Source: Bacillota bacterium (lineage in GTDB: Bacteria > Bacillota > Clostridia > Lachnospirales > Lachnospiraceae). From it: a DNA stretch of 64,000 bases. Both the position numbers and the translations under genes were made by a program. This document shows positions 11,097 through 30,134 of the stretch, piece after piece. Each line of letters opens with the position of its first letter. The stretch's first letter is position 1. The notes below the pieces were generated by a model. That model was not told the origin of the DNA. It was given only the letters and a program-made list of their open reading frames with translations, and made no database searches. The DNA lies in assembly GCA_023386315.1 (NCBI GenBank), contig JAEWJZ010000004.1, positions 68,250-132,249 of the forward strand, written 5' to 3'.

Positions 11097-11111
11097 GCAA
11101 AGGAGTGCAAT

Positions 11112-11690: not shown

Positions 11691-11761
11691 GAAACACAAT
11701 CTATACAATATGCCTTATTATGGGGTAAACAGTACCCACTGACAAGGACAAAAAACACAAG

Positions 11762-11826
11762 TAAACTGTACCCTGATAGTAAAACGCAGAAAAAGAAGCT
11801 GTGTTAAACTGTCAGGGTACAATTTA
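11762..11826. repeat. Inverted repeat with GTACCC ends, possible mobile-element remnant
   Basis: A 19-base arm at 11762-11780 (TAAACTGTACCCTGATAGT) is matched in inverse by 11808-11826 with two mismatches, around a 27-base spacer. A third, partial copy of the outer motif (TAAACAGTACCC) lies at 11726-11737. The 280-base gap between dpaB and the two-component system holds no gene. The arrangement looks like the ends of a small insertion element or a deletion scar, but no transposase is present. Confidence 0.45.
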
Positions 11827-11906
11827 TGGCGTGACACTAATCCATCTTCTCCTTTCATTTCTATATCTAGAAAAATCAAATCAAATTTATATCATATTTA
11901 AATCTC

Positions 11907-11935
11907 TTGAATTTATTTGTTTCTGCGTTTACACT
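11907..11935 (+). promoter_or_regulatory. Probable promoter of the lan two-component operon
   Basis: TTGAAT (11907-11912) and TACACT (11930-11935) are separated by exactly 17 bases, 35 bases upstream of the response regulator start. This is a plausible sigma-A promoter. Confidence 0.5.
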
Positions 11936-11970
11936 AAAAATAGAAAACTATTAGATTAGGGGGACCAGAA

Positions 11971-12666: not shown

Positions 12667-12668
12667 AG

Positions 12669-13592: not shown

Positions 13593-13610
13593 AGGCATAT
13601 AAACCAAATA

Positions 13611-13666
13611 CAAGGATCTTGCAAGGTTGGGGCAAGGTTAATGCAAGGTTGGGGTGTTAGTATAAT
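13611..13666 (+). promoter_or_regulatory. Four 11-bp iterons overlapping the promoter of the immunity ABC operon
   Basis: CAAGG recurs at 13611, 13622, 13633 and 13644, exactly 11 bases apart; the last three read CAAGGTTGGGG, CAAGGTTAATG, CAAGGTTGGGG. A perfect -10 TATAAT follows at 13661-13666. The expected -35 position (13638-13643) falls inside the array and has no consensus hexamer. Tandem sites on one DNA face, replacing the -35, are typical of an OmpR-type activator, most simply the response regulator encoded at 11971. Confidence 0.75.
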
Positions 13667-13692
13667 CTCAATAAGAAAAGGAGGTTTCCGGT

Positions 13693-14616: not shown

Positions 14617-15382
14617 TCTTCTTTATGCAGAGTTTATAAAATTTAAAAGAAGAAAAATTTTTTCATTTGGAATACTGGCAGCATTAATTTTTCCTGTTTT
14701 TAATTCTGCCCTGTTATCTGAATCTAATTTTGCAAGCATCCAATCCGGAGTAAGGGAAGACAATGCTTTTTTACTTTTAATGCCTATGCTCATCATTCTG
14801 GCATCAAATCTTTTTTTTGTAGAACAGGATAATAACACTCTTAAAAATCTACTTTGTATTCCTATTCCACCCAAGAAAATAGTGCTCGCAAAACTGCTGG
14901 TCTTATTGTTTTTTTCAATCACATTCCAAATTACCGGTTTTGTTATCAGTACCGTAATTGCCATCATTCAGAATATACCGGTTATTCAGCCTTTTTTTCA
15001 ATTTTTTCTAACTGCATCCACCGGCGTATTGATATGGGCTGCGGCTCTCCCATGCATTGTTCTGGTTGTTTGGTTTAATAAAAGCTATTTACTCTCTATT
15101 ATCATAGTTTTCTTTTACACGCTTATAAACTATGTAATGCATTTCAGCGATGCAATTATGATGCAACCTATTGGATTACATGCTGGTACATTAATGCCTG
15201 TCCCAATGATATTTAGATGGCTATATCAGTTTTATACTCCAGTTGGAGATATACAAACTGCTTTTTACCACCGCTTTAGTCAGTATTTTGCTTCTACACC
15301 TATTTGCTTTTTTGTACTTCTGCTGGAGGCCTTTGTATGTATTTATATAATGTTCTGGATTTACAACAGCAGGGAAAATTAA
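14609..15382 (+). CDS. Immunity-type ABC transporter permease (LanE-like)
   Basis: This is one of two permease subunits of the exporter. I take TTG at 14609 as the start because GGGAGG (14595-14600) lies 8 bases upstream; a GTG at 14600 overlaps that site. This gives 257 residues with six predicted membrane helices, beginning LHNLLYAEFIKFKRRKIFS. The EFIKFKR motif near the N-terminus is typical of LanE/LanG and ABC2-type permeases. The start overlaps the end of the ATPase gene by 8 bases, implying translational coupling. It is similar in architecture but not closely identical to the next permease. Confidence 0.85.
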   Translation: MHNLLYAEFIKFKRRKIFSFGILAALIFPVFNSALLSESNFASIQSGVREDNAFLLLMPMLIILASNLFFVEQDNNTLKNLLCIPIPPKKIVLAKLLVLLFFSITFQITGFVISTVIAIIQNIPVIQPFFQFFLTASTGVLIWAAALPCIVLVVWFNKSYLLSIIIVFFYTLINYVMHFSDAIMMQPIGLHAGTLMPVPMIFRWLYQFYTPVGDIQTAFYHRFSQYFASTPICFFVLLLEAFVCIYIMFWIYNSREN

Positions 15383-15397
15383 GAAAGGAGCTTCTTC

Positions 15398-16204
15398 ATG
15401 ATCTGCATTATAAAAACAGAGTTCATAAAATTGAAACGCTTTCATATTCTGCTTATTGGTATGATTGGAATGACTTTTCCAGCTATTCTATCAGTTTTTA
15501 CGCAAACTGTCTCTACTCCCGAAGCGCAGATACAAAATTTTAACATCTCAGCCATGTTAGATAATACCATCTGGAACAATGCAACTATTTTCATGCCTGT
15601 CACCTTTACACTGATTGGGGGTTACTTAATTAACCGTGAATATACAGATGATACACTTAAAAATATTTTTACAATTCCTATCAGTTTTCAAAATCTTATT
15701 ATGGGAAAGCTGATTACTATGGGTATATTAAGTGTGCTGTTTGGTTTTTATAGTTTTTTAGTAACTATTATCGTGGGATTAGTGACTGGTATAACAGGAT
15801 TCAGCGCAGTTGTTTTGTTGAAAGGTTTTTTGCAGATGCCTGGTATGGCTCTCTGCACATTTATTTCAGTTCTTCCCATTATTACATTCACAAGCCGAAA
15901 ACGTGATGCCTTTATGGGCGGTGTTATTATATCTTTTCTATTTGGATATAGTTCTATGTTTATAAAAAACGTTACTCTTCGCAGTTTATACCCCATATTA
16001 TCTGGTCTAACTGTTATACAGTTTGATACAAGAATATACATGAACACCACTGAACCCGCTAATCTTTTTATGTCTATTTTAACTTTGGCTGCCGTACTTC
16101 TGCTTACAAGCGAAATTATTTTATTATCTGGCCCACCCCAAAAAACAATAAAAAGCAAAAAAAACACTATGTTTCTACGACAAGGTCAAAAAAGAGAGAG
16201 CTGA
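15398..16204 (+). CDS. Immunity-type ABC transporter permease (LanG-like)
   Basis: This is the second permease of the exporter, 268 residues with about six membrane helices. It begins MICIIKTEFIKLKRFHILLI, with the same TEFIKLKR start motif as its partner, and includes NREYTDDTLKNIFTIPIS, a cytoplasmic segment common to these permeases. ATG at 15398 has AAAGGAG upstream, 15 bases after the previous stop. Two different permeases with one ATPase is the classic LanFEG layout. Confidence 0.87.
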   Translation: MICIIKTEFIKLKRFHILLIGMIGMTFPAILSVFTQTVSTPEAQIQNFNISAMLDNTIWNNATIFMPVTFTLIGGYLINREYTDDTLKNIFTIPISFQNLIMGKLITMGILSVLFGFYSFLVTIIVGLVTGITGFSAVVLLKGFLQMPGMALCTFISVLPIITFTSRKRDAFMGGVIISFLFGYSSMFIKNVTLRSLYPILSGLTVIQFDTRIYMNTTEPANLFMSILTLAAVLLLTSEIILLSGPPQKTIKSKKNTMFLRQGQKRES

Positions 16205-16241
16205 TATAGGCCCATAATTAATAATAAGGAGAGTTTTAATT

Positions 16242-16508
16242 ATGAAAGAAAAATTATTGAGCACAATTGCAGTGATTACTATTTTAATTCCTTTCACAGT
16301 CATTTTACTTTGGAACGCTAATAACCCTAATGCAACCGCCATTTTAATTGGATATTGCATTTTTTCCACAATCAGCTTCTTTTATACCCTTTTTCTATTT
16401 GCTGTAAAGCGATTCAGGAATACTAATATAAAGGTCGCGCTAGGTGTTAACAGCCTATATCTCTTATGTATTTTGTCATTTGTAGTATTACCTCATCTTA
16501 TGAATTAG
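16242..16508 (+). CDS. Small membrane protein at the end of the immunity operon
   Basis: I do not recognise the family. The 88-residue product has three predicted membrane helices (about 5-24, 30-54 and 64-85), separated by short loops (WNANNPNA and KRFRNTNIK), and little else. ATG at 16242 follows AAGGAG. It lies 37 bases after the second permease and before the shared terminator, so it is probably cotranscribed with the exporter. Its position matches that of LanI/LanH accessory immunity proteins in other clusters. That role is an inference from location only, as it has no lipoprotein signal. Confidence 0.65.
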   Translation: MKEKLLSTIAVITILIPFTVILLWNANNPNATAILIGYCIFSTISFFYTLFLFAVKRFRNTNIKVALGVNSLYLLCILSFVVLPHLMN

Positions 16509-16512
16509 CAAA

Positions 16513-16561
16513 TTAATACCCTCATATAGGATTGAAATAGCGTCCTATATGAGGGTATTAA
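16513..16561. terminator. Shared bidirectional terminator of the two lanthipeptide half-operons
   Basis: A perfect 19-bp stem (TTAATACCCTCATATAGGA at 16513-16531 and its exact complement at 16543-16561) with an 11-base loop lies between convergent genes. It is flanked by A/T runs on both sides and should stop transcription from both directions. Confidence 0.88.
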
Positions 16562-16588
16562 ACTACTAAATATAATTCCCGACCAATC

Positions 16589-18703
16589 CTAGAGTTTAGA
16601 GTGAATTAATCTATAATACAATGATTTGTTGTTCAATAATTCTTCATGTTTTCCTGATTCAATTATTTTTCCTGATTCGATCACATATATCCTGTCAAAA
16701 TCCTGAATTGTATTTAAACGATGGGTAACTACAATCTGGCTGACACCTTCTTTTTTTATATTTTCATAAATCTTTTTTTCTGTAATTGGATCTAAATTAC
16801 TTGTTGCCTCATCAAATACTATAACTTCTGGGTCAAGTGCTACTGCCCTTGCAATTGCAATTCTTTGCTTTTGTCCTCCAGAAATATTCTGACCATTTTC
16901 GCCAATAAATGTGTTAATCCCCATTGGACAACTTTGAATAAAGTCCTGCATTTCTGAAACCCTGGCAGCTTTATTAAGTTTTTCATCAGACAGGGATTTC
17001 AAGATATCAATATTATCTTTAATTGAACCACTAAAAGCAACCGGAGTCTGCGTAACTATTGTGAATATCCTATCAATATCATCTCTATTAATTTCTGTTA
17101 TGTCAATGCCATTTAAAGTTATTTTACCCGTGTAACTAAATAAAACATTCATTATTATTTTTAATAATGTTGATTTTCCGCTTCCAGATGTACCAACTAT
17201 AGCAATCCGCTCTCCAGTTTTTAAATCAAAGTTAATATCAGATAATTCTTTTTTATTACTGTTCCCATATGAAAAACTGAGTCCTTCCAGCTTTAGATGT
17301 TCAAAATGCTCAATTGATAACTGACCATTCTCAGCATTTTCATTATACGTAAGGAATTCTTCCAATCTTAACAATGTTTCTTTTAAATTACCAAGCTGCG
17401 GAATTACAATTGATACGGTGTTAAACGGTGCCATAAAATAAGATGATAATGTGACAAAGGCAATAAGCCCCCCTATCGTCATTTCTGTTATGGAGACAAA
17501 GTACGATCCACAGATATAAATTAATAGTGGGGTTATGATGCCAATTGAATTAATACCTGATTCAAGAAAATTTCCAGCAATGCTCTTTTTCCGCAATAAA
17601 TTTAACACCTTATCGTAATCATGCTTAAGACCCGTATTTAAAATCATACTTAATCTCATACATCTGATCTGCTGGATATTTACTAAAGTATCAACCATTT
17701 TTCCCTCTAACTTACTTCTCTCCGCAATATAATTCTTAACTAACTCATCTAACTTTTTTTTAATCAGGCTGATATATATTAACTGAAGAAAAATTATTAT
17801 TAAAGTCATTAAAAATAAAACAAATGATTGTCCTATCATAAAAACAGCACAAATAATTGCTGTTATTATTTCTACAAAGGTTGATATAAGTAACGCTGAC
17901 ACAAAATCATAGATGTCATTTACACTGTTAAATCTATATTGCAAATCTCCAGATGAGTGACTTTCATAAAATTTTAAATTAATGCGAAATAGTTTTTCAA
18001 TCATATGGTGAATTGTTTCTTTATAAAGATTGTTTTGTACCAGAAGTATTATGTTTTGTTTCAGCAGATTCGCACAAAAAAAAGCAATCATTATAGATAA
18101 TGCAATTCCCAAATATATAAGGGTATTGTATCCAACAGAACTTTTTCCCATTGTATCTACAATTTTTTGAATTGTAAGTGATGGTAACAAAACAATACAC
18201 TGAGTCAATAGTGTCAATATAAATGCAGATACAATAGAAGAAAATTTAACCTTAATAGATGAACTTCTAATATTCTTATTCTTTTTTTTGATGTTCTTTG
18301 TTGGAACAATTTTAATAATATATCGTTCACATTCATTAAGCAAATCCTGAAATGACATATGCCTTAAACCATTAACCGGATCATTAATAAAATATTTATT
18401 TCCCACTTTTTGTGTTACTACAAAATAATGGTTACTTTTTGTACACATAATAAGCGGTAAATTAGCGCTTATATTTTCTTCCACTAAAAAATCTTCATAG
18501 GCCGTAAATTGAAATCCATACTCTTCAGCAATATATTTCATATCAGAGAAAGATAATCCATCACGGCCAATGTTTAAATTAGCTCTTATATCATTTTGAT
18601 TAAATTTACATCCATAATACTGAAAAACCATAGTCAGACATGAAATTCCGCAATCAGTTGTTCCTAATTGTCTGATCATAGGAACCTTTTTCTTTTTAGG
18701 CAT
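16589..18703 (-). CDS. lanT: Bifunctional lanthipeptide protease/exporter, C39 ABC transporter (LanT)
   Basis: LanT removes the leader peptide after a double-Gly-type site and exports the mature lanthipeptide. The 704 residues contain an N-terminal C39 peptidase domain with catalytic C18 (TTDCGISCL), H92 (NHYFVV) and D108 (NDPVNG). Six membrane helices (about 155-430) follow, then an ATPase with Walker A GTSGSGKST, signature ISGGQKQR and Walker B VIVFDEATS. All three peptidase residues are present, so it should be active. It begins 4 bases after lanM and ends at the shared terminator. Confidence 0.95.
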   Translation of the reverse strand: MPKKKKVPMIRQLGTTDCGISCLTMVFQYYGCKFNQNDIRANLNIGRDGLSFSDMKYIAEEYGFQFTAYEDFLVEENISANLPLIMCTKSNHYFVVTQKVGNKYFINDPVNGLRHMSFQDLLNECERYIIKIVPTKNIKKKNKNIRSSSIKVKFSSIVSAFILTLLTQCIVLLPSLTIQKIVDTMGKSSVGYNTLIYLGIALSIMIAFFCANLLKQNIILLVQNNLYKETIHHMIEKLFRINLKFYESHSSGDLQYRFNSVNDIYDFVSALLISTFVEIITAIICAVFMIGQSFVLFLMTLIIIFLQLIYISLIKKKLDELVKNYIAERSKLEGKMVDTLVNIQQIRCMRLSMILNTGLKHDYDKVLNLLRKKSIAGNFLESGINSIGIITPLLIYICGSYFVSITEMTIGGLIAFVTLSSYFMAPFNTVSIVIPQLGNLKETLLRLEEFLTYNENAENGQLSIEHFEHLKLEGLSFSYGNSNKKELSDINFDLKTGERIAIVGTSGSGKSTLLKIIMNVLFSYTGKITLNGIDITEINRDDIDRIFTIVTQTPVAFSGSIKDNIDILKSLSDEKLNKAARVSEMQDFIQSCPMGINTFIGENGQNISGGQKQRIAIARAVALDPEVIVFDEATSNLDPITEKKIYENIKKEGVSQIVVTHRLNTIQDFDRIYVIESGKIIESGKHEELLNNKSLYYRLIHSKL

Positions 18704-18707
18704 ATTA

Positions 18708-21700
18708 TCACCTCATATTAACTGCTAAGACACAGGGTAAATCTTCTGATAAATCTCTAAGAAGCGAGTACCCAATTCCAGACATACCATTCATAAAACC
18801 TAATGAATAATAACCATACAGAGAACTTACCCCCAGGCATTCGTCTTTGGCTATACCCGCTACTATTTCTTTTCTAATTTTTTTAATATCCATCTCAAAT
18901 TTTTTATCACCGGATTTTTTACAATATTCTTGTATAATCTCTGTGTTTCCAATATTACCATGACATAAGCAGTTATTATTACTGATACCATTATGATAAA
19001 CAGTTTCAATAGCATTCCGAATATCCTGTAAGATAATTGTTTTGCATTTATCATCACAAATACTTAACATGCCTATTCTTCCCAATAGAATACCTGGTGC
19101 ACCATGGCACCATGCAACTGTATAGATATTTTTATCAGATATTTTTTCGCCTTTAAAGTGCCGCTCATCTCTCCAGTTTTTATACGCCTGGTCATAGAGA
19201 GTTTGTTCAAACTCCAACCCTTTTTTTATCGCATTTAAAGTATATTCATTTAGTGTATATTCCCATAATCTTGTCAAAGCATAAATAATTCCCGCCGTTC
19301 CATGAGACATTCCCGCAAGCGCAGACATTTTAGGATTGCCTGTCCAGCCTCCATTGTGGTCTTGAGATACTATCAAAGTATCACCAGCCTGCTGAGCCAA
19401 TAATAAATAAGACTTATTATTTGTAATCTCATACATTTCAATTAGTGCAATTATGGCTCCGGAATTTCCATATACCAAATCAAACTTTTTATCATTCGGA
19501 ATCGCTGCTGACAAAATATCTACGTGACGAACCGCATATTCTAAATATGTTTTTTTGTTTGTGATCTTATACAGCAGGCAATATGTATAAACAAGACCAG
19601 CCTCTCCATTAAAAATGCCACTATCTTCCTCTATAAGACTCTGTTTATCTTCCAGCAAATTGTCTGTATATTGATACAATGATTCTGCTACTGCATTTAA
19701 AACTTGTTCATATTTTTTACATTGAAAAACTTTATTAATCGCAGCAAAAAATATAGCAATACCAGCCAAACCTTCATATAGATAAACGGATATAGGCCGT
19801 ATATCCCATGAAAAATTATCATCATCACCAAGAGGCAGTACATCAATCCAGCTAATATCTTTTTTATTCTTTCCCCACACGGCTTTACTAATAAGATAAT
19901 CAGCAATTTTTTTAACTGTTTCTTCGCATTCAGACTCATATGACAAAACAGATTTATTTGGAATAATATGTTTTATCTTTGAGTTCCTTTCATTCGTTTT
20001 ATCCACATCATCCAATGCAATGTTTATAAACATCACCTGTTTCTCCAAATCAGCATCACTTAACTCCATTACTTTATGACATACACGTTCAATACTTGTA
20101 TGGGAAAAGTAATTTTCAATACATTCCCCCCTGCCATTTCTTAGCATAGTCTCATTTGCCATAACTGTAAAATACGGGATATCCATATGAAGCATATCAT
20201 CCACTTCATGTTTAATTATGTCTTTAGATTTATTAGTAGCTGTACTGTCTTTGTATAAAGAACATAAAAACAATTCTCTATCTTTACAATCCTGAAGGAA
20301 ATCCGGATGATAAGACAGGTGCAGAATCATACTATATTTTTGGGTATCTTGTATTAGGTGTCTCACTTTTAAATCACCAAAACTATTTAATAGATCACAC
20401 ATACTATTCTTATTAGCAAAAGCATATATATATGCATGACTAAATCCCTCCACAATATTAGCCGAAAATTCTGCAGCGGGCACAAATAAATCATTAAACC
20501 TGGCCAGATTATCCCGATCCTCTTTCACAGGGTTTTTATACTCAAGATGCATATTGGATGTATACTCATCAACAATATGCGGAATTTTAAATGGAAAAAG
20601 CGTTCCTCCCTGCCCCCCCACTGCACTCATATCAATTCCTTGTCCGTTCTTATCGAACCTTTTCTTAGGCAGAAGACCAGAAGACATAACCGATTCTCTT
20701 AGCATATTATTTATACTATCTCTTGCATACTGCTGGTCAGAAACTTTCCAATTTTCAAGAATAGTTTCTGCATCTATGATTTTGGGGTATTCGCCATTTG
20801 CTATTAAGTTTTCCTCATGAAAATCATTTGCATTAAGGATGTAGCTGATAAATATCAGTGCTCCAAACCTATAATAATATCGTTTTAACTGTTCATAGCT
20901 TCTACAGCAATCACTTTCTATAAACTCTTCCCAACCATAATTTCCACAATCAAGTATATTAAATTCTCCTAAATCATATAAAAGACCGGGTTTTATAAAA
21001 TTAATGGTTTTTTGCAAATACACTTCTGCTTTTAAACTTCTGGATTTATAAACCAATTTATTCTTATTCTTAAGTGCAAGGATAAATACAGTCTCTCCGC
21101 CATTATGAGAATCTGATGTATCTGATTTTAAGGTTTCAATAAATAAGTTTTTATCACTAATATCAAAGTTTTTACATATTTTTTTCCAATCATTGTTCAA
21201 TCGAGTAACAAACGATATATAGCATCTATTAGTAATTAAAATAGATTCAAATACTAACCGCTCTAAACCAGGATATAACTGAAAAAGCTTTGCTATATAA
21301 TTTTTATCTTTTAAATAATCTTCATTAAACTGCGAATATTGCTCAGAGGGAGTTCCCTCTAAAAGTCCAATCTCTTTACTTATATACATCTCAAATATTA
21401 AGGTTCTTAAAGAAACACTTCCAAGTTTATCTAGCAACGCCCTTGTATAGCTTTTTATAATACTTGGCTGTAAATCGGGAAGTGCTTTATTTAATGCGTA
21501 CACTCCGAATTGAAGAAAATGAATATAAAAACTCGAAAAATACATTTTATCAACCGGCATTGTTTCATTTTTTGGTGAATCCAACTGATACTCTCTATAT
21601 AAAATCATTATTTGACTCAATTGATCTATATCCTGTGTAAATATAGGCTCAGTATACTTTGGAAATAAAATAGCTTTAAATGAGTTTCCATATACCGTCG

Positions 21701-21821
21701 GAAAAACATGCATATCTACACCTGATAATATCTTCTTCCAGTAAGCTAAAACCTCCTCTTCTCCCCTTTTTTCATCCAATATTTTTCTCTCTTTTATATA
21801 GTAACTCTTAATTGATATCAT
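18708..21821 (-). CDS. lanM: Type 2 lanthipeptide synthetase (LanM)
   Basis: LanM dehydrates Ser/Thr in the precursor by phosphorylation and elimination, then closes thioether rings. The 1037 residues split into an N-terminal kinase-like dehydratase (DUF4135), with YKSRSLKAEVYL, NDFHEENLIA and PKIIDAETI, and a C-terminal LanC-like cyclase from about residue 680. The cyclase has Gly-rich barrel motifs (LYEGLAGIAIFF, MSHGTAGIIYAL) and zinc ligands in WCHGAPG and CLCHGNIG. The length is normal. Its ribosome site GAGGAG (21830-21835) is partly inside the arm of the long repeat that encloses lanA. The gene is AT-rich compared with the flanking chromosome. Confidence 0.96.
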   Translation of the reverse strand: MISIKSYYIKERKILDEKRGEEEVLAYWKKILSGVDMHVFPTVYGNSFKAILFPKYTEPIFTQDIDQLSQIMILYREYQLDSPKNETMPVDKMYFSSFYIHFLQFGVYALNKALPDLQPSIIKSYTRALLDKLGSVSLRTLIFEMYISKEIGLLEGTPSEQYSQFNEDYLKDKNYIAKLFQLYPGLERLVFESILITNRCYISFVTRLNNDWKKICKNFDISDKNLFIETLKSDTSDSHNGGETVFILALKNKNKLVYKSRSLKAEVYLQKTINFIKPGLLYDLGEFNILDCGNYGWEEFIESDCCRSYEQLKRYYYRFGALIFISYILNANDFHEENLIANGEYPKIIDAETILENWKVSDQQYARDSINNMLRESVMSSGLLPKKRFDKNGQGIDMSAVGGQGGTLFPFKIPHIVDEYTSNMHLEYKNPVKEDRDNLARFNDLFVPAAEFSANIVEGFSHAYIYAFANKNSMCDLLNSFGDLKVRHLIQDTQKYSMILHLSYHPDFLQDCKDRELFLCSLYKDSTATNKSKDIIKHEVDDMLHMDIPYFTVMANETMLRNGRGECIENYFSHTSIERVCHKVMELSDADLEKQVMFINIALDDVDKTNERNSKIKHIIPNKSVLSYESECEETVKKIADYLISKAVWGKNKKDISWIDVLPLGDDDNFSWDIRPISVYLYEGLAGIAIFFAAINKVFQCKKYEQVLNAVAESLYQYTDNLLEDKQSLIEEDSGIFNGEAGLVYTYCLLYKITNKKTYLEYAVRHVDILSAAIPNDKKFDLVYGNSGAIIALIEMYEITNNKSYLLLAQQAGDTLIVSQDHNGGWTGNPKMSALAGMSHGTAGIIYALTRLWEYTLNEYTLNAIKKGLEFEQTLYDQAYKNWRDERHFKGEKISDKNIYTVAWCHGAPGILLGRIGMLSICDDKCKTIILQDIRNAIETVYHNGISNNNCLCHGNIGNTEIIQEYCKKSGDKKFEMDIKKIRKEIVAGIAKDECLGVSSLYGYYSLGFMNGMSGIGYSLLRDLSEDLPCVLAVNMR

Positions 21822-21832
21822 ATTATTTTCTC

Positions 21833-22140
21833 CTCAATTCACAATAAATACCTGCACCATTCTAACCTAATAATTAATATGTACCATTCTATTTAGGACA
21901 ACATTTTTTAAGGTAAGTACCATAATAACATTCTGCTGTTGCTGTACATACAACACCGCCAGACATTCTAAGTTCTCCGGCACCTGCTGAAACTCTGTTT
22001 AATTCTGCCTCTTCCATTTCTTTCATAACATTACCAACTGGATTAATAAAATTAATTCTTGTCACTGCATTTCTCATATTATTCATATTAAATTCCCCTT
22101 TCGCTTATTAGAATAGTGCAGGTACTTATTCTAAATTGAG
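21833..22140 (-). repeat. Long-range 32-bp inverted repeat enclosing lanA
   Basis: The arms are 21833-21864 and 22109-22140, separated by 244 bases that contain all of lanA. They match at 28 of 32 positions. Read as lanA-sense RNA, three of the four differences become G:U pairs, leaving one G:G mismatch. The upstream arm lies in the lanA leader, between the probable -10 box (22167-22172) and the ribosome site. The downstream arm ends inside the lanM ribosome site. The structure could be an RNase III-type processing stem, could limit lanM translation, or could be an invertible DNA segment; the wobble pattern favours RNA. Confidence 0.7.
21889..22086 (-). CDS. lanA: Class II lanthipeptide precursor, mersacidin-type motif (LanA)
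   Basis: The 65-residue precursor has a leader and a Cys-rich core. The leader contains NPVGNVMKEMEEAELNRV (15-32), the type seen in alpha peptides of two-component lantibiotics, then SAGAG (33-37), the likely C39 cleavage region; a second candidate is SGG at 42-44. The core holds CTATAEC (47-53), which fits the CTxTxEC lipid II-binding signature of mersacidin, actagardine and related peptides, then YYGTYLKKCCPK. Ser/Thr available are S42, T48, T50 and T57; Cys are C47, C53, C62 and C63. The ATG has AAGGGG upstream. No beta-type partner peptide is visible. The gene is followed by lanM and lanT. Confidence 0.93.
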   Translation of the reverse strand: MNNMRNAVTRINFINPVGNVMKEMEEAELNRVSAGAGELRMSGGVVCTATAECYYGTYLKKCCPK

Positions 22141-22166
22141 CTTTATTATTCTTTAAATTTGTTTGA

Positions 22167-22237
22167 ATAATACCATATAAACAATTTCTTTTTTTTTTAA
22201 TGTAATTTTTCCTGTTGTTTATGTAATTTTTCCTGTT
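22167..22237 (-). promoter_or_regulatory. lanA promoter region with 21-bp-spaced direct repeats
   Basis: Two identical 17-base repeats (ATGTAATTTTTCCTGTT on the plus strand) lie at 22200-22216 and 22221-22237, with start-to-start spacing of 21 bases, two helical turns. Downstream in the lanA direction is a T/A tract (22187-22198), then a -10-like TATTAT (minus strand, 22167-22172). No -35 consensus stands at the right distance. This looks like an activator-dependent promoter. The repeat does not clearly match the CAAGG iterons at 13611, so a different regulator or a different binding mode may act here. Confidence 0.65.
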
Positions 22238-22266
22238 ACTTATTCCACAGTTATTTATAAAATAAA

Positions 22267-22310
22267 AATAAGTTCATACACTTGTATATCTACAAGAGCA
22301 TGAACTTATT
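22267..22310 (-). terminator. Terminator of the GNAT gene upstream of lanA
   Basis: AATAAGTTCAT (22267-22277) pairs with ATGAACTTATT (22300-22310), with an inner CTTGTA/TACAAG stem. On the minus strand it is followed by a T-rich run, as expected for the end of the 22409-22933 gene. It insulates lanA from the gene before it. Confidence 0.75.
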
Positions 22311-22408
22311 TTGAACTTATTTAAATTAATGCATAAAAACTAAACTGATTTAACTCATTCTTGGCGTCAGTCTTTTAGATCTTTATTTCGTCTATCGTTC
22401 TATAACAT

Positions 22409-22933
22409 TTATCTGGAATAGATCCGATTCTTATAATCTCCCATGCCGCTGGTATCCTCTATGTTATAGCTCATGAGGTAATGGGTCCTTGACGTGCCAT
22501 AAATGGTAAATCCATGTTCCCGGTATAAATCTGCAAAAGGAGCCGACTGATATACCGTTAGCAAAACAGGTTTCTTAGTCCGGTCTGACAACCGGGTTAT
22601 AAAATGAAGAAACTCCCCCAATAGCGCTTTCTCCTTACCGGACTCAGACATTATAACAGAGACATCGGTGATCTGGTCCGGCTGTTCCTTATAAGCTAAG
22701 AATCCTGTGGTCTCCCCACTCCTTAAGATTTTCAAAAAGCTGGCATCTTTCCTTGTTCTATGAAATAAGTCATCAGCAATGATCATCTGTATCTCTTCAA
22801 CCCAGCCGCCGTAATACTGATCTACAAATGGTTTTAAGAAGTCTTTTCTTATTTTCATATACTGGTCAGAGTCACCTTCCTCAACCGGTTCTATTGTATA
22901 TCCCTTACTGATCAGATCATCAGATAATATCAT
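22409..22933 (-). CDS. GNAT-like acetyltransferase
   Basis: The 174-residue protein looks like a small GNAT-fold N-acetyltransferase. It starts with a typical first strand, GYTIEPVEEGDSDQYMKIRKDF. It contains SGETTGFLAYKEQPDQITDVSVIMSE around the beta-4 region and ends with FADLYREHGFTIYGTSRTHYLM, the usual strand-helix-strand. The acetyl-CoA loop (QxxGxG) is poorly conserved (ESGKEKALLGEFL), so activity is less certain. The ATG follows AAGGGGGAAG. It is a single-gene unit between the PTS operon and the lanthipeptide cluster. The substrate is unknown. Confidence 0.7.
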   Translation of the reverse strand: MILSDDLISKGYTIEPVEEGDSDQYMKIRKDFLKPFVDQYYGGWVEEIQMIIADDLFHRTRKDASFLKILRSGETTGFLAYKEQPDQITDVSVIMSESGKEKALLGEFLHFITRLSDRTKKPVLLTVYQSAPFADLYREHGFTIYGTSRTHYLMSYNIEDTSGMGDYKNRIYSR

Positions 22934-23036
22934 GCTTCCCCCTTACCAGCAATGGTCTGGATTCCTTCTATTTCTACCATTATATAGACAGTCCCCGTAA
23001 TTATTCTTTCTGGTTCTCTTTTTCCAGCTCTGCTGT

Positions 23037-23888
23037 TCAAAACCCTCTTCCACTGCTTTTACAAACCCAGATCTTATCCTGCACATAGCGCTTTACCAGC
23101 TCTTTTCCCATTTTTCCGTAAACCTTTGGGTCTATGACTGATTTATCTTCATTAAGAATTCGTTTTACCCCGTCACTGAATGCAATCCTTAAATCTGTGG
23201 CATAATTCACCTTACAGATTCCTTCCTGAATGCAGCTTCTCACTACATCATCCTCTACACCCGATGTTCCGTGAAGCACCAGGGGAATAAATACTCTTTT
23301 TTTAATTTCACTTAAAAGATCCAGACGGATGCGGGGAGTTCCTTTATATACTCCGTGTGCTGTTCCAATTGCAACAGCCAGGTAATCAATACCGGTCTGC
23401 TGGACAAATTCCGCTGCCTGATCCGGCAAAGTGAGTCCCACACAGCTGTTTACCAGATCATCTTCTTTCCCTCCGACACAGCCTAATTCCGCTTCAACCG
23501 GAACTCTGCAGGGGCGGCATGTCTCCACAACCCGTCTGACCAATTTGGTATTCTCGCCCAATGGCAGATGTGAGCCATCAATCATAACTGATGTATACCC
23601 TTCCCTCAGTGCCTGGACGGCCAGTTCAAAACTGTCTCCATGATCCAGATGCAGGGCGACAGGGACAGAAGCTCTCTCAGCCACTGCCTTTACATTGGCA
23701 TAATAGAGATTTAAACCGGCATATTTAACGGTGGAAGGTGTCGTCTGTAAGATGACAGGCGACTGCATCTCCTGCGCAGCCTCCACGACTGCCATGACCA
23801 TTTCCATATTCTCCACATTAAAGGCTCCGACAGCATAATTGCCTTTCTGAGCATCAAGCAGCATTTCTTTCGAAGTAACTAATGGCAT
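23037..23888 (-). CDS. Class II fructose/tagatose-bisphosphate aldolase
   Basis: This zinc-dependent aldolase splits ketose 1,6-bisphosphates into dihydroxyacetone phosphate and glyceraldehyde 3-phosphate. The 283 residues show the class II metal site in VALHLDHGDS (H80, D82, H83), EAELGCVGGKEDD near 135, GTAHGVYKG near 178 and LHGTSGVED near 208. The size and motifs resemble the GatY/KbaY/FbaA group, so fructose- and tagatose-bisphosphate are both possible. It is the last gene after a ketose-type PTS and a PfkB kinase, so it probably cleaves the bisphosphate those two make. Confidence 0.92.
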   Translation of the reverse strand: MPLVTSKEMLLDAQKGNYAVGAFNVENMEMVMAVVEAAQEMQSPVILQTTPSTVKYAGLNLYYANVKAVAERASVPVALHLDHGDSFELAVQALREGYTSVMIDGSHLPLGENTKLVRRVVETCRPCRVPVEAELGCVGGKEDDLVNSCVGLTLPDQAAEFVQQTGIDYLAVAIGTAHGVYKGTPRIRLDLLSEIKKRVFIPLVLHGTSGVEDDVVRSCIQEGICKVNYATDLRIAFSDGVKRILNEDKSVIDPKVYGKMGKELVKRYVQDKIWVCKSSGRGF

Positions 23889-23898
23889 CTTCTTTCTC

Positions 23899-25743
23899 CT
23901 ATTCTTCTGTAATCAGCTGTATAATCTGATCCTTTTGTGTACATTCTTTCAGCCTGGACAGAAATCCGGGTTCCATGAGTTTTTTGGAAAGAGCAGAGAG
24001 CAGTTTTAAATGAACATCGTCTTCTTTCTCTCCCACAGCAATCATAAAAACGGCATATACCGGTTCTCCATCTGAAGAATCAAAAGAAATTCCATTCTTT
24101 GATATCCCGACAGCGACTCTTGGCACTCGAACTGACTGTGATTTTCCATGGGGAATCGCTATGCCGCTGCCAAATGCCGTAGAAGAGATCTCTTCCCGCT
24201 TCATAATCTCTTTTTTAAAAGCCTCTGCATCCTGCAGAACACCATCTGCATAAAGCATTGCCACCATCTCATCGATGATCTCCTCTTTCCCGGTATTTAC
24301 AAGAGAAAGGCATATTGTCTCTTCTTTCAGTAACGAATCCGGTAAGATATCATCATCAGCATTCCATACAGCCGTATCTTTTTTTGCAATCGGAGTCACA
24401 AATATGTAAAGAACTGCCCCAATAAAAGAGCCAAGCAGTATACAAAGTACCCATACAGCCGGTTTATTCACCAGACCAAGAATCAGGAAACCTCCATGAG
24501 GCGCCGGCACTTCAATCTTCATCAGATAAGTGGAAACAGCCGAAATAGATGAGCTTAACATGAGAATTGGAATTACTTTTAACGGATTCTTCGCCGCAAA
24601 GGGAATGGCTCCCTCCGTTATATGAGTGAAACCCAGAACATAATTAACCAGAGCTGCAGTCCGGTCCTCCTCCGAAAACCGGTTTTTCTTAAGGGTGGCT
24701 GCAATGGCCAGAACCAGAGGAGGCGTAATGCAGGCAGCCGAAACACCTGCCATAAAATAGTAATTTCCCTGTCCAAGAAGAACGGTTCCTGTTACATAAG
24801 CGGCTTTATTAACCGGACCTCCCATATCAAATCCACACATGCAGCCAATAACAATTCCCAGGAGAACCGGACTGGTATTCTGAATCTTTGATAATGCCGC
24901 CATCATCCACTGGTTAAGGGCCGCACAGGGCTGGGCAAAGAGCATCATCAGGATGCCTACACCTCCAATGGTGACGATAGGAACAATAAAAATAGACTTC
25001 AGCCCTTCCAGCTGTCTTGGAAGTCTTCTTAAGGAACTGACTACTCCCTGGGAAAGATATCCCGATAAAAATCCGGCGACAATTCCACCAAGAAATCCCG
25101 CATCAGTACCAGCTGCAATGGCACCTCCCACCAGACCGGCCAGGAGTCCCGGGCGCCCGCCGATGGACTGGGCGATAAAACCACTGAGAACTGTGACCAT
25201 CAATCCCATGGAATAACCACCTACTGATTTGATCATCGCAGCAACCGCGTTGTACTGTTCTGACTTCGGATCAAAGGAATAAATGCCCCATAAAAAAGAA
25301 ACAGCAGTCAGAACACCTCCCGCTACGACCAGTGGAAGCATGTGGGAAACACCGTTCATCAGGTGCTTATAGATCTGACGGGCGGTATTTTGATTCTGAC
25401 TGGGGGCCAGATTATGAATTGCGGTCCCTTTTCTGACAGGCACCTTTCCATCCAGGCATGCCTTTACCAGTTCCTCCGCCTTACTGACTCCATCCCCCAC
25501 CGATACCTCCAGAACCGGCTTGCCATTAAAGCGCTCTAAATCCACGCTTTTATCACTGGCAACAATAATTGCATCTGCTGCCCTGATATCTGCCTCAGTT
25601 AATGCATTTTCAATCCCGATTGCCCCGTTGGTTTCCACTTTGATCTGACACCCCAGTTTTCCAGCCGCCTCTTTTAAGGCCTTCTCAGCCATAAACGTAT
25701 GGGCGATTCCCGTAGGGCAGCCTGTAACTCCAAGTAAATTCAT
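23899..25743 (-). CDS. PTS fructose-type transporter, EIIBCA fusion
   Basis: This is a sugar-specific permease of the fructose family that takes up and phosphorylates a ketose. In its 614 residues the order is EIIB (1-98, phosphorylated C9 in LLGVTGCPTGIAHTFMAEKA), EIIC (about 130-450, around nine helices) and EIIA (about 475-614, phosphorylated H532 in GIAIPHGKSQSV). The B-C-A order differs from the A-B-C order of FruA. Both phosphorylation sites are intact. The start overlaps the kinase stop (ATGA-type overlap at 25740-25743). The sugar is fructose or a close relative such as tagatose. Confidence 0.93.
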   Translation of the reverse strand: MNLLGVTGCPTGIAHTFMAEKALKEAAGKLGCQIKVETNGAIGIENALTEADIRAADAIIVASDKSVDLERFNGKPVLEVSVGDGVSKAEELVKACLDGKVPVRKGTAIHNLAPSQNQNTARQIYKHLMNGVSHMLPLVVAGGVLTAVSFLWGIYSFDPKSEQYNAVAAMIKSVGGYSMGLMVTVLSGFIAQSIGGRPGLLAGLVGGAIAAGTDAGFLGGIVAGFLSGYLSQGVVSSLRRLPRQLEGLKSIFIVPIVTIGGVGILMMLFAQPCAALNQWMMAALSKIQNTSPVLLGIVIGCMCGFDMGGPVNKAAYVTGTVLLGQGNYYFMAGVSAACITPPLVLAIAATLKKNRFSEEDRTAALVNYVLGFTHITEGAIPFAAKNPLKVIPILMLSSSISAVSTYLMKIEVPAPHGGFLILGLVNKPAVWVLCILLGSFIGAVLYIFVTPIAKKDTAVWNADDDILPDSLLKEETICLSLVNTGKEEIIDEMVAMLYADGVLQDAEAFKKEIMKREEISSTAFGSGIAIPHGKSQSVRVPRVAVGISKNGISFDSSDGEPVYAVFMIAVGEKEDDVHLKLLSALSKKLMEPGFLSRLKECTQKDQIIQLITEE

Positions 25744-26666
25744 ACTCCCTCCACCTTTCTCACAATAATCTCTTTTGCATAGTTCTCAACTTTATCCATT
25801 AAACCCAGTCCGCTGCTCTCTGCCACATTGGCCCCTACCGCTGCGGACCGCCTTAATGCTCCCTCAATCTCATATGGCTGCTTCAGCCATATACTTAAAA
25901 AACCTGCAAGTGCCGCGTCACCGGCACAGGCTGAGCTTACCAGCTGAATTTTCTTAGTTCCTGCATGGTAAAGCTCACTGCCGTTATAAAAGTAGGACCC
26001 CCGTTCGCCTAAAGTCAGAAGGATATTTCTGGCGCCGCTTTCATGGAGATCCTTAAGAACATCCGTTACATCTGCCTCATCCCTCATTACAATTCCAAAG
26101 ATATCCTTAATCTCTTCGTCGTTGGGTTTAATCAGATACGGGCGGCATCCCATTAAATCTTTTAAATAGGAAGAGCTGATATCCAGAATAACAGCCGCCT
26201 GCTTCTTTCTGCAGATCTCCATCACCTCATCATAAAAGGTATCCTTAAGCCCTTTTGGAAGGCTTCCGCTGATAATTAACGTATCCATATCGTTAAGCGT
26301 CTCCATCAGCCTGCACAAATTCTTCTGCTTCTTTGGGGAAACATAGGAACCTTCATTTACAAACTTATACTCTTCGGTTCCGTCATTTAAAAAAATGTTG
26401 ATTCTGGTGGTATCGTCCACCCAGACCGGATACACTTTAATCCCCCGCTTCCGGGTCTCATCAACAATATACTTCCCGGAAAACCCGCCGAAAAAGCCAA
26501 GAACAGCGGACTGTGTCTGAAACCGCTTCAGACAGTAACTGACATTTAACCCCTTTCCGTTGGGTGTATATACTGCATCAAAAGTACGGTTCACCACCTT
26601 TCCCATAATTCCATAAGACGAGATATTCATATCAATCGCCGGATTTGCTGTCAATGTATAGATCAC
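25740..26666 (-). CDS. 1-phosphofructokinase family hexose kinase (PfkB)
   Basis: This kinase phosphorylates a ketose monophosphate to the bisphosphate using ATP. The 308 residues have the PfkB N-terminal motif NGKGLNVSYCLKRF (38-51) and the C-terminal anion-hole and catalytic motif SACAGDAALAGFL (about 244-256, catalytic Asp in AGD). FruK (fructose 1-phosphate) and LacC (tagatose 6-phosphate) are both close. The fructose-type PTS next to it makes the first more likely. It is first of a three-gene operon kinase-PTS-aldolase controlled from the region at 26711-26754. Confidence 0.9.
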   Translation of the reverse strand: MIYTLTANPAIDMNISSYGIMGKVVNRTFDAVYTPNGKGLNVSYCLKRFQTQSAVLGFFGGFSGKYIVDETRKRGIKVYPVWVDDTTRINIFLNDGTEEYKFVNEGSYVSPKKQKNLCRLMETLNDMDTLIISGSLPKGLKDTFYDEVMEICRKKQAAVILDISSSYLKDLMGCRPYLIKPNDEEIKDIFGIVMRDEADVTDVLKDLHESGARNILLTLGERGSYFYNGSELYHAGTKKIQLVSSACAGDAALAGFLSIWLKQPYEIEGALRRSAAVGANVAESSGLGLMDKVENYAKEIIVRKVEGV

Positions 26667-26710
26667 CTTATTCCACCTCTCTTTTCTATGAAAACCCCTG
26701 CTTGTCTGTT

Positions 26711-26754
26711 ATTATAGAGAAAATATCGGTGAAAATCTTTTCAGTTTCTGAAAA
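26711..26754 (-). promoter_or_regulatory. Promoter and probable RpiR operator of the ketose PTS operon
   Basis: A minus-strand TATAAT lies at 26711-26716, about 45 bases upstream of the kinase gene. A perfect 7-bp inverted repeat, TTTTCAGTTTCTGAAAA (26738-26754), covers its -35 region. GAAA/TTTC palindromes are common operators of RpiR-family regulators, and an RpiR gene is immediately upstream, so I read this as its target. Confidence 0.55.
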
Positions 26755-26817
26755 CTGCTGTATCTGATCCCCTGACCGTTCTGTGCCTGGCCACAGGCTT
26801 GCAATTCCACTAAAATA

Positions 26818-26850
26818 CGCTGGAATACCAGAAAATCAGGTGCTCCAGCG
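26818..26850 (-). terminator. Hairpin after the RpiR gene
   Basis: CGCTGGA pairs with TCCAGCG, with an inner ACC/GGT, 14 bases past the rpiR-type stop codon. The stretch after it on the minus strand is T-rich but short, so it may be a weak terminator. Confidence 0.55.
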
Positions 26851-26863
26851 TCTATGTAACCGG

Positions 26864-27640
26864 TCAGGAATAAGTTGACATATAATCTATGATAATTCTG
26901 CAGATCATATACAGTGGAATCCTCGAAGAGACCTCAAATTCCTTAATGGCCTGATGAGAATGCTTAAACCCTACCAGAGAAATCTTACTGCATGACAGTA
27001 ACCTGGACTTAGGATTGCAGCAGCATGAAATTACGCAGTTCCCCTTCTGGTGGGCTGTGACAGCCGAAGAAACCAGCTCCGGAGTCTGTCCGTTCAAAGA
27101 TAAAATAAACAGAACATCCCGCTCTTTCAGCTTCGAAGCCTTCACCTGCATGATATTGGGATCATCCGTAAAGAAAACATCATAATCCAAAAGCTGTAAT
27201 TTTAATGAAAACTCCTGACCAACATAGGTGGTGAGGCCTCTGGCAAACACTGATATCTGATGTGCCTCCTTTAAACACTGAATGACTGCCAGAATATCCG
27301 TCAGTGAAATCCGTTCATGTACAGCCTGAGCCTCAATGAGTGTTTTATTAAAAAGCTCATTCATGCTCTGAATCTCTTCACTTCTCGCCTTATTCCCGGA
27401 GCGGTACCTTAATTCATTAAATCCATTCAGGCCGCACTTACGAATGGCTCTTGATACCGTAGAGGGTGAAGAGTAAGTATCAAATGCAATATCAACAATG
27501 GACATTGCATGAAGAGTGTTCTCATGGCTGTTGATAAAATTAATAATTTCCAGTTCTGTCTTTGTCAGATTTTCTATTATATCTGAGTCAAGTGAGATAA
27601 TTATGAAAACCTCCCCCTTTCCATACCTTTGCAGTCGCAT
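26864..27640 (-). CDS. RpiR/MurR family transcriptional regulator (start uncertain)
   Basis: This is a sugar-phosphate-responsive regulator with an N-terminal helix-turn-helix (IVDIAFDTYSSPSTVSRAIRKCGLNGF) and a C-terminal SIS domain that binds phosphosugars. The longest frame starts with an ATG at 27640, but no ribosome site precedes that. A strong GGGGGAGG (27611-27618) sits inside the frame, followed by no ATG, GTG or TTG; an ATA or ATT about 5-8 bases after it would start near SLDSDIIENL. The true start may therefore be non-canonical, at about 27603-27606. It probably controls the adjacent PTS operon. Confidence 0.85.
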   Translation of the reverse strand: MRLQRYGKGEVFIIISLDSDIIENLTKTELEIINFINSHENTLHAMSIVDIAFDTYSSPSTVSRAIRKCGLNGFNELRYRSGNKARSEEIQSMNELFNKTLIEAQAVHERISLTDILAVIQCLKEAHQISVFARGLTTYVGQEFSLKLQLLDYDVFFTDDPNIMQVKASKLKERDVLFILSLNGQTPELVSSAVTAHQKGNCVISCCCNPKSRLLSCSKISLVGFKHSHQAIKEFEVSSRIPLYMICRIIIDYMSTYS

Positions 27641-27649
27641 AAATGCAAC
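27634..27649. promoter_or_regulatory. XRE-type operator copy, between small XRE gene and RpiR gene
   Basis: GTCGCATAAATGCAAC is a one-mismatch form of the palindrome GTTGCA-N4-TGCAAC. It begins one base past the stop of the small XRE gene, at the 5' end of the RpiR frame. It is one of four copies near XRE genes in this window. Confidence 0.5.
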
Positions 27650-27865
27650 TTAACGGGCAAAAAAAATTCTTGCAGCCTCTTCTTTCGTCAGCGGGATCAT
27701 CTTCATAATTTTGTTCATCTCTTCTACCGTAAATGTATTGCCTTTCCTCTTCATCTTACGATAAAATGTACATCTGCTTACTCCGATGGCATCTGCAATC
27801 GCTTCCTGAGTCAATGCTGACTCTGCCATCTTCTCCTTTAACATTTGTATATTCAAATAATACAC
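27650..27865 (-). CDS. Small XRE/phage-type helix-turn-helix protein
   Basis: The protein of about 70 residues is almost entirely one helix-turn-helix domain: ESALTQEAIADAIGVSRCTF, then YRKMKRKGNTFTVEEMNKIMKMIPLTKEE. This resembles short phage-derived XRE repressors. The start is a GTG at 27865 or, more likely, a TTG at 27856 that lies 7 bases after AAAGGGG. An operator-like palindrome (27875-27890) lies just upstream and another just after the stop, suggesting autoregulation and control of the RpiR gene downstream. Its relation to the PTS operon is unclear. Confidence 0.75.
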   Translation of the reverse strand: MYYLNIQMLKEKMAESALTQEAIADAIGVSRCTFYRKMKRKGNTFTVEEMNKIMKMIPLTKEEAARIFFAR

Positions 27866-27874
27866 CCCTTTCCA

Positions 27875-27890
27875 GTTGCATTAATGCTAC
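27875..27890. promoter_or_regulatory. XRE-type operator copy upstream of the small XRE gene
   Basis: GTTGCATTAATGCTAC fits GTTGCA-N4-TGCAAC with one mismatch. It lies about 10 bases upstream of the small XRE gene start, overlapping its probable leader or ribosome site. Confidence 0.5.
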
Positions 27891-27961
27891 TATTGTAATA
27901 TAAGAATAGCTCATAGGAATTAAAAAGTCAATATGCAAATCGCAGAAATGCATCTATTGTC

Positions 27962-27991
27962 GTTGCATTTTTGCAACATTGATGATATGAT
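27962..27991 (+). promoter_or_regulatory. Promoter with perfect XRE operator (first copy)
   Basis: The perfect palindrome GTTGCATTTTTGCAAC (27962-27977) contains the -35 hexamer TTGCAT (27963-27968), which is 17 bases from the -10 TATGAT (27986-27991). A protein bound to it would block RNA polymerase. The same arrangement is repeated upstream of the paralogue at 36038. Confidence 0.75.
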
Positions 27992-28021
27992 ACCTATAGG
28001 ATACATTCAGGAGGTATGAAC

Positions 28022-28525
28022 ATGTCAGTTACTGGTCAGAGAATAAAAGAAAGAAGAACTCAATTAGAGATGAGCGCAGACGATGTAGCCGCCCGGTTAG
28101 GCGTTTCAAGGTCTACGATTTTCAGATATGAGAACGGACACATCGGGAAGGTTCCCGCTAATGTTTTAGAAAAACTGGCGGGCATTCTTAAAACTACTCC
28201 AGCTTATTTAATGGGCTGGCAGGATGAGAGCGCTGAATATCAGTATTCAGGCTGGAATGGACCTGCAGATTCAGCCGTCGAAAGCTTATTCAGAGAAGAT
28301 GGCGGCAAGGGTTACCACACAGATGGTGAGTTGGAAACTGTTATTCAAAAAGCTCATCCGGACGACAGGAAAAAGATCACTGCCATGGCGAAGCTATACT
28401 TCACCCTGACAGATTCCGGGAAAAGAAAAGCCTATGATTATCTCATTGATTTGTCCGAACAGCCAAAATACCGGAAGCAGTATCATGACGCCGTTTTTCA
28501 GGTTGTGGAAGAAGAAAAAGAATAA
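28022..28525 (+). CDS. XRE family transcriptional regulator, paralogue 1
   Basis: This repressor-like protein has a Cro/CI helix-turn-helix at the N-terminus: MSADDVAARLGVSRSTIFRY, with KVPANVLEKLAGILKTTPAYLMG after it. A C-terminal region of unknown fold follows (about 75-167) and ends with an Asp/Lys-rich helix. I take the ATG at 28022, 7 bases after AGGAGG, over the ATG at 28016, which is only one base from it. The N-terminal 65 residues are about 80% identical to the protein at 36038. A perfect operator overlaps its own promoter, which implies autorepression. It has no peptidase motif. Confidence 0.88.
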   Translation: MSVTGQRIKERRTQLEMSADDVAARLGVSRSTIFRYENGHIGKVPANVLEKLAGILKTTPAYLMGWQDESAEYQYSGWNGPADSAVESLFREDGGKGYHTDGELETVIQKAHPDDRKKITAMAKLYFTLTDSGKRKAYDYLIDLSEQPKYRKQYHDAVFQVVEEEKE

Positions 28526-28674
28526 ATTAATCCAGCTGTTCCATTTAAATTTTATATCAGTAAAAAATCTTGCTCCTGGTAATAAAATCTTGCTGATTTG
28601 TAATTAATAGTATGATAAAATAAAATGTATTTTCCACACAAACAATACTATAGAAAAGCAGGAACAGTTGAACT

Positions 28675-30092: not shown

Positions 30093-30128
30093 TTTTGTTT
30101 CTGTGGATTACAATCCACAGAAACAAAA
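30093..30128. terminator. Bidirectional terminator between permease and GH43
   Basis: TTTTGTTTCTGTGGATT and its perfect complement form a 17-bp stem around two bases, with T/A runs at both ends. It lies between convergent genes. Confidence 0.88.
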
Positions 30129-30134
30129 AATAAT

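Follow-up and report, generated by a model that had tools for sequence, protein, structure and literature searches.

A conserved and covarying RNA helix predicted to clasp the whole lanA gene in plantaricin C type lanthipeptide operons

In RiPP operons, a single promoter has to supply much more precursor peptide than modifying enzyme, and partial terminators are most often invoked to explain this precursor:enzyme ratio; short lanA-lanM hairpins act as partial terminators of this kind and are regarded as setting the lanA:lanM ratio. A conserved helix around a whole protein-coding gene within an operon has, to our knowledge, rarely been described in bacteria. Among enclosing helices, those formed by the leader and trailer of pre-rRNA are substrates of RNase III. 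Such helices arise when complementary flanks of one RNA within a longer co-transcript form a long helix around the sequence between them (PMC10250234). In the icaR mRNA of S. aureus, according to the passages used from PMC3868564, the duplex between the 5'-UTR and the 3'-UTR was demonstrated to serve as a substrate of RNase III and to hinder translation initiation. A published locus for comparison is the plantaricin C operon of L. plantarum LL441, which has the gene order plnC-lanM-transporter; the section of PMC6107846 that deals with this locus reports two terminator-like repeats, one located approximately 600 bp 5' of the plnC start codon, the other near the distal ABC gene, and does not mention the inverted repeat described below.

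Here we describe a long-range stem that encloses lanA in a stretch of 64,000 nt of Lachnospiraceae DNA (the window, i.e., the whole stretch that was analysed). As in icaR, RNA stretches that flank a single coding sequence pair over a long range, here by computation; however, icaR pairs a UCCCCUG motif with its own Shine-Dalgarno region, whereas the lanA Shine-Dalgarno sequence (22100-22095) lies outside the helix, and the lanA helix is much longer than the icaR pairing, with a base located at the following operon gene (compared with the passages used from PMC3868564). While the pre-rRNA helix encloses rRNA, the clasp described here encloses the protein-coding lanA, and unlike partial-terminator hairpins, which are local, it spans the whole of lanA and lacks a T-tract. 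The plantaricin C locus (L072) shares with the window both the gene order and the clasp, with 1473-1500 pairing with 1758-1785 in a helix that can be aligned with, and covaries with, that of the window. No title or abstract with such a stem was found among the matches listed for lanthipeptide, lantibiotic and plantaricin C literature, a search with most subscription journals outside its scope. A sequence-only reading of the window had remarked that no lanthipeptide cluster with such a stem was known to its author; this holds for the literature matches listed, but the stem itself sits in a published locus, that of plantaricin C (PMC6107846, locus section). On the comparisons below, the clasp looks like an unrecognised control element and not a coincidence.

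The lanA operon and its flanking arms

According to the list of open reading frames (ORFs), a class II lanthipeptide operon with the gene order lanA, lanM, lanT lies on the minus strand of the window. The lanA gene (21889..22086) encodes a 65-aa precursor peptide of the plantaricin C family, which scores above the cut-off of NCBIfam model NF000539 (E 1e-8; 35.5 bits against a cut-off of 29), as did all eight other LanA peptides tried, three from loci with the stem (L013, L089, and L072) and five from loci without it. It is followed 3' by lanM (18708..21821), encoding a class II lanthipeptide synthetase (TIGR03897, E 1.6e-251), and by lanT (16589..18703), encoding a C39-peptidase ABC transporter (Pfam PF03412, PF00664, and PF00005), such that the cluster has an NF000539 precursor followed by a LanM and a C39-peptidase transporter. 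The closest relatives are Lacrimispora and a metagenome-assembled genome in the Lacrimispora genus group. Elsewhere in the window, ORFs at 11971-13592 were judged by eye to resemble an OmpR-type regulator and a kinase.

Signals around lanA, all on the minus strand, were assigned by reading the sequence. A putative lanA Shine-Dalgarno sequence, AAGGGG (22095..22100), lies between the arms of the stem and is not part of the long helix, and a putative lanM Shine-Dalgarno sequence, GAGGAG, occupies 21830..21835. The likely -10 box, TATTAT (22167..22172), is located 26 nt 5' of the left arm; supported by alignment, it corresponds to TATAAT in L001, a close relative of the window cluster, and was not among the sites listed by a promoter scan. 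A promoter within the right arm was also considered and rejected, as the only match was weak and the region yielded four matches against 4.5 expected. Upstream of the likely -10 box, a direct repeat TTACAT-N15-TTACAT with a 21-bp period (22200..22226) recurs at equal spacing in L013 (4845-4871) and L058 and is a possible activator site. Further upstream, between an ORF at 22409-22933 and the cluster, a strong local hairpin (22257-22320), also present in L001 and L002, resembles a terminator with a T-rich end, and was not listed by the pattern scan for terminators. A scan of 21400-22700 against Rfam gave no match above a gathering score; two sub-threshold matches to microRNA models both fell on this hairpin and neither on the arms.

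The two arms were delimited by an inverted-repeat search, a stem search, and pair-by-pair comparison. The upstream (left) arm (22107..22140, minus strand) lies in the lanA leader, after the likely -10 box, and ends 5' of the lanA Shine-Dalgarno sequence, and the downstream (right) arm (21833..21866, minus strand) runs from 22 nt past the lanA stop codon to 11 nt short of the lanM start codon, leaving the whole of lanA between them. The inverted-repeat search reported 33-nt arms (21833-21865 and 22108-22140; 88% complementary, 242 nt apart), in which 29 positions form Watson-Crick pairs, positions 8, 16, and 26 are G:U, and position 10 is G:G; an additional U:G pair (22107 with 21866) extends the helix to 34 positions, comprising 29 Watson-Crick pairs, four G:U pairs, and one G:G in lanA-sense RNA. 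The sequence-only reading had placed the arms at 21833-21864 and 22109-22140 and had counted three G:U pairs and a single G:G; the arms proved to be one base longer, and the tally is the same. That reading had also placed one arm in the lanA leader and the other over part of the lanM ribosome site. Both placements are seen in the window, where the 3' end of the right arm contains three of the six bases of GAGGAG, but conservation does not extend to this overlap with the ribosome site.

Since lanA-lanM hairpins are common as partial terminators in lantibiotic operons, the stem might be thought to act as a transcription attenuator or terminator that stops or pauses the polymerase between lanA and lanM, a function that we regard as highly unlikely. 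After the right arm the sequence reads GAGAAAATAAT, with no T-tract, the arms are approximately 240 nt apart and unsuited to a classical terminator, and the lanA stem is not the compact stem plus T-run of an intrinsic terminator. A limited scan listed nothing resembling a terminator in 21700-22500, but it also failed to pick up the evident hairpin at 22257-22320.

Strength of the stem and its occurrence among lanA loci

Folding of the region, a check that the sequence-only reading had proposed, placed the long stem at the core of the minimum-free-energy structure of 381 nt (-86.1 kcal/mol, against a shuffle mean of -66.0; z -4.05, with none of 100 shuffles as good). When stems with loops of approximately 100-600 nt were searched throughout the 64-kb window, the lanA stem ranked first on the lanA strand (score 65, next 48) and also on the opposite strand (54, next 42). 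Maximum scores in 40 simulated 64-kb sequences, 20 with the composition of the window and 20 with the local composition, ranged from 35.5 to 46.5, plus one of 59. The duplex energy of the two flanks was -58.1, compared with -21.7 +/- 3.8 for shuffles (0/300 as good; 9.5 standard deviations below). The next-best long-range stems of the window, at 30114-30329 and 15731-16168 (minus strand), scored 48 and 44, close to or slightly over the usual simulated range.

For comparison, 31 lanA loci were tested by a constrained search, assembled in batches of 18, 7, 4 new, and 2 loci (L086 repeats L029). The left arm was sought up to 160 nt before lanA (200 nt for the last two loci) and the right arm between lanA and the start of lanM (in a fixed 450 nt for the last two), with 40-60 single-base shuffles per locus. 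Many of the lanA genes are short frames rich in Cys that were picked out visually. In L004 and L097, where no lanM start could be placed, the right arm was sought in the 450 nt after lanA; the lanM of L069 is a putative one, the lanA start used for L093 was out of frame, and for L072 the annotated lanA start at 1559 was used instead of a 58-aa reading from 1544. The genome samples from which loci were drawn overlap. LanA matches numbered 2/25 in the genus of G002 (one weak), 0/397 in its family, 2/392 in the order (one weak), 1/236 in the class (weak), 1/10 in the genus of G696, 4/368 in the family of G696 (only G696 strong), 3/68 in the genus of G905 (weak), and 2/68 in the family of G1038 (G1038 itself and one weak), and LanM matches were obtained in 6/25, 53/397 (up to 30 loci taken), and 6/12 genomes. 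LanA and LanM scans of viral contigs returned only L013 and L057, which are one and the same contig, or none; L014-L026 are loci from two pattern scans of viral contigs.

The stem was found in eight of the 31 loci, which fall into four lineages whose LanM proteins are 31-44% identical to one another: the window and L001; L013 and L058; L089; and the plantaricin C operon (L072) with two plasmid relatives (L071 and L075). Shuffle maxima at these loci were 29.5-41, and the helix extends over 26-34 positions, or longer with a bulge in L013 and L058. L001, with a LanM 91% identical to that of the window, has the same left arm over 33 nt and a right arm identical at 32 of 33 positions, the single change losing a pair (U:U at position 31). 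L013, with a LanA 68% and a LanM 44% identical to those of the window, and L058, from a genome of the same order as the window and with a partial LanM 40% identical, have arms identical to each other and flank duplexes of -61.0 (0/300 shuffles each). IMG/VR lists L013, a contig of 68.7 kb, as viral, and L058 is a near copy; their cluster may ride on a mobile element. L089, from the Lacrimispora family and the genus of G287, has a stem score of 60.0 and a LanA 54% identical to plantaricin C. The plantaricin C operon scored 61.5 and its relatives on plasmids of Pediococcus claussenii (L071) and Secundilactobacillus paracollinoides (L075, with lanM annotated in pieces) 62.0 and 57.0, respectively. 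The best folds of L072 (z -4.02, 0/100 shuffles), L013 (z -4.94, 0/100), and L089 (z -3.45, 1/100) all contain the stem. In the lanA-lanM spacer of L089, at 1273-1303, GTTAAGGCAG is present twice, the second copy within the right arm, which may mean that the arm has been duplicated in part.

The stem was not found in the other 23 of the 31 loci, 22 of which scored under their own shuffle maxima and five of which have a LanA that belongs to NF000539 (L064, L042, L074, L073, and L076). Since these 23 loci are without it, the stem is not needed for class II lanthipeptides generally; among the loci compared, it is a mark of a subset of the plantaricin C family and not of class II clusters at large. 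Flank duplexes somewhat better than shuffles were seen in the Priestia locus L064 (3/300 as good), L029 (7/300), and L032 (14/300), all far weaker relative to shuffles than those of the stem loci. A free stem search of 24 loci and the window gave clear stems in the window, L001, and L013. At L031, a long gapped inverted repeat (score 56.5) lies roughly 340-820 nt upstream of lanM, with no lanA recognised beside it. L002 (Lacrimispora amygdalina) matches the window lanM only from about codon 223, with neither lanA nor arms upstream of the match; at about 5980-6020, where approximately the first 222 lanM codons are missing and the promoter-side repeats are kept, it has the look of a decayed cluster.

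Covariation and the level of constraint

The central claim of the sequence-only reading, i.e., that the RNA structure is maintained, is upheld by the comparison that it had itself proposed, as related clusters keep the arms and the arms covary in them. Between the window and L013, seven of 33 pairs are changed on both sides and all seven are still paired; four one-sided changes stay paired, one pair is broken, and the U:G at position 8 and the G:G at position 10 are unchanged. With the L013 left arm held fixed, none of 200,000 random right arms with an equal number of changes kept as many pairs, and five of 200,000 did so when only the bases, and not the positions, were randomized. L089 and L072, aligned without gaps on their left arms only, are identical at 18 of 30 bases; 11 of the 30 pairs are doubly changed and kept, one one-sided change is kept, and two pairs are unpaired in one of the two loci. 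An equal-scoring gapped alignment gives nine kept double changes in 29 pairs.

A MAFFT alignment of the joined arms in seven rows aligned all four lineages. Of its 182 cells (seven rows by 26 pairs), 96.2% are paired, compared with 78.0% in shuffles (0/500), a percentage that is partly by construction as rows were selected for having the stem. Pairs changed on both sides number 15 of 26 (8.0 in shuffles, 0/500), doubly changed cells 31 (11.0 in shuffles, 0/500), and the covariation score is 0.615 (0.274 in shuffles, 0/500), all on four independent lineages only, the three lactic acid bacterial rows being nearly identical. Sliding the partners by 1-3 columns left 30-43% paired. The number of further pair types was not significant (24 vs. 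21.5 in shuffles, 52/500). RNAalifold returned nearly the same helix, with 26 pairs, 15 of them with a double change, omitting the column that is G:G in the window, L001, and L013.

These data bear directly on the reading that the stem is a functionless chance inverted repeat, which we regard as extremely improbable. One of the 40 simulated sequences did reach a score of 59, and the lanA of L029 is enclosed by a borderline stem (37 against a shuffle maximum of 31) that is taken as chance, given that its sister L087, with a LanM 98% identical, lacks it and scores 20.5. Against chance stand the compensatory changes and the conservation across four lineages, and in our view this comparative evidence refutes it.

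A different question is whether the arms are kept alike as DNA, being either crossover sites of an invertible segment or paired protein-binding sites maintained by recombination or by a co-evolving protein. Inverted repeats of approximately 30 bp that flank one gene would suit such an element, and both the Pediococcus and the Secundilactobacillus plasmid have a recombinase-family gene close to lanA. However, lanA has the same orientation in all eight stem loci, which leaves DNA inversion, the alternative that the sequence-only reading had named as refuting its RNA claim, without support, and no recombinase was noticed by eye among the window ORFs at 14000-30000 and 6000-14000. The differences at positions 8 (U:G) and 10 (G:G) are common to the window and L013 while their neighbours covary, and hence the arms have not been homogenised by conversion or inversion. 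Constraint at the DNA level would tolerate differences of the A:C and G:U types alike. The alignment contains seven wobble columns, all G:U in lanA-sense RNA and none A:C, a one-in-128 outcome if polarity were random, with the argument weakened by a search scoring that favoured G:U over A:C when L089 and the plasmid loci were brought in. Because only lanA-sense RNA can use G:U columns, these wobbles favour lanA-sense RNA as the constrained molecule, and we consider a DNA-level element highly unlikely.

Within the RNA, structure of the single arms and a peptide read from the left arm were also considered. In the window, a local hairpin can form from the left arm, and a kissing-hairpin arrangement was dropped as the arms alone were not clearly better than shuffles: the eight arms folded alone gave z values from -1.74 to +0.90, the best being the left arm of the window (12/200 shuffles as good). 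Since the arms alone show no clear structure, pairing between the arms is the likely target of selection. Among 52 of 67 LanA-like proteins surveyed, database frames P0004, P0096, P0101, P0121, and P0122 translate the left arm by eye as QFRIS..., and P0119, P0124, and P0147, by inferred back-translation, seem to use another frame, SLE..TAL; no start codon was seen in that frame close to the arm in the window. An upstream peptide was rejected on these grounds, and as the frames differ among relatives and the window has no nearby start codon, conservation of the left arm looks like that of an RNA and not of a peptide. In all eight of these proteins the LanA frame seems to run through the leader, preserving the left arm, a hint that further lineages may carry the element (P0119 represents 491 contigs). 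LanA relatives also occur, as protein records, in Clostridium boliviensis (P0001), a C. butyricum metagenome-assembled genome (P0104), and Peptoniphilaceae (P0111).

Possible functions of the clasp

Pairing, conservation, covariation, wobble bias, and position of the helix are supported by computation, and the position in particular suggests how it might act. In every lineage, lanA and its own ribosome site lie inside the arms and outside the helix, and the right arm starts 22-62 nt past the lanA stop codon. The distance from the helix base to the lanM start is 11 nt in the window and L001, 15 nt in L089, 14 nt in L072, and 29 nt in L013 (approximately 24 nt if the helix is extended). From this anatomy, with lanA inside and the base near lanM, it follows that lanA should be translatable in the closed form and that the lanM start would be crowded. 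The predicted folds of the window, L072, L013, and L089 also place some local pairing in the loop.

We consider it about an even chance that the RNA clasp would separate the expression of lanA from that of lanM-lanT, most likely via an RNase III cut. The arms would pair in the nascent lanA-lanM-lanT mRNA, forming a long helix that clasps the entire lanA cistron. The ribosome site of lanA, being outside the helix, should remain accessible and lanA translatable, while the lanM start, with the helix base just 5' of it, would be crowded. As the helix is longer than two turns, a length sufficient for RNase III, it might be cut as the leader-trailer helices of pre-rRNA are, which would set free a lanA message with paired ends, apart from a message for lanM-lanT, and would let precursor outnumber enzyme; helix that escaped cutting may also hinder lanM initiation. 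The cut, the effect on stability, lanA translation in the closed state, and the ratio of expression are what we infer from this model. Both functions that the sequence-only reading had proposed, an RNase III split between lanA and lanM-lanT mRNA or repression of lanM translation, would fit the anatomy.

Another possibility is that the helix is not cut, RNase III not being involved, and acts by jamming the lanM initiation region and lowering LanM synthesis. The helix base lies 11-15 nt before the lanM start codon in the window, L001, L089, and L072, which is within the footprint of a ribosome; in the window and L001 the arm also includes part of the lanM Shine-Dalgarno sequence. A short local hairpin would suffice for this purpose, however, without an arm located approximately 300 nt away before lanA, the base in L013 is more distant, and in L072 no Shine-Dalgarno sequence that could be hidden was seen before lanM; we regard purely translational control as unlikely, though it deserves serious consideration. 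Alternatively, the paired flanks may shield lanA from exonucleases and from 5'-end-dependent decay and raise the level of lanA mRNA without a specific cut, as would suit a helix that closes both flanks of lanA and leaves the ribosome site out. If lanA is co-transcribed with lanM, however, it is internal, and cutting or termination would have to create a 3' end beforehand, and 21700-22500 yielded no terminator-like site in the limited scan described above; protection by itself seems improbable.

Starting from the preferred reading, in which the clasp separates lanA from lanM-lanT, we tentatively propose, with somewhat less than even confidence, that it is a deeply conserved, unnamed cis-acting RNA element that excises or insulates one cistron in the manner of pre-rRNA and fixes the precursor:synthetase ratio by way of an end-paired mini-message. 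A covarying RNA element around lanA would be a different, and testable, answer to the question of how precursor comes to outnumber enzyme. The clasp occurs in a food strain, L. plantarum LL441, and it would be lost from plantaricin C type clusters refactored without the leader or without the spacer between lanA and lanM. If the proposal is correct, the clasp would have persisted while LanM diverged to approximately one-third identity, in organisms ranging from Lacrimispora relatives to lactic acid bacteria.
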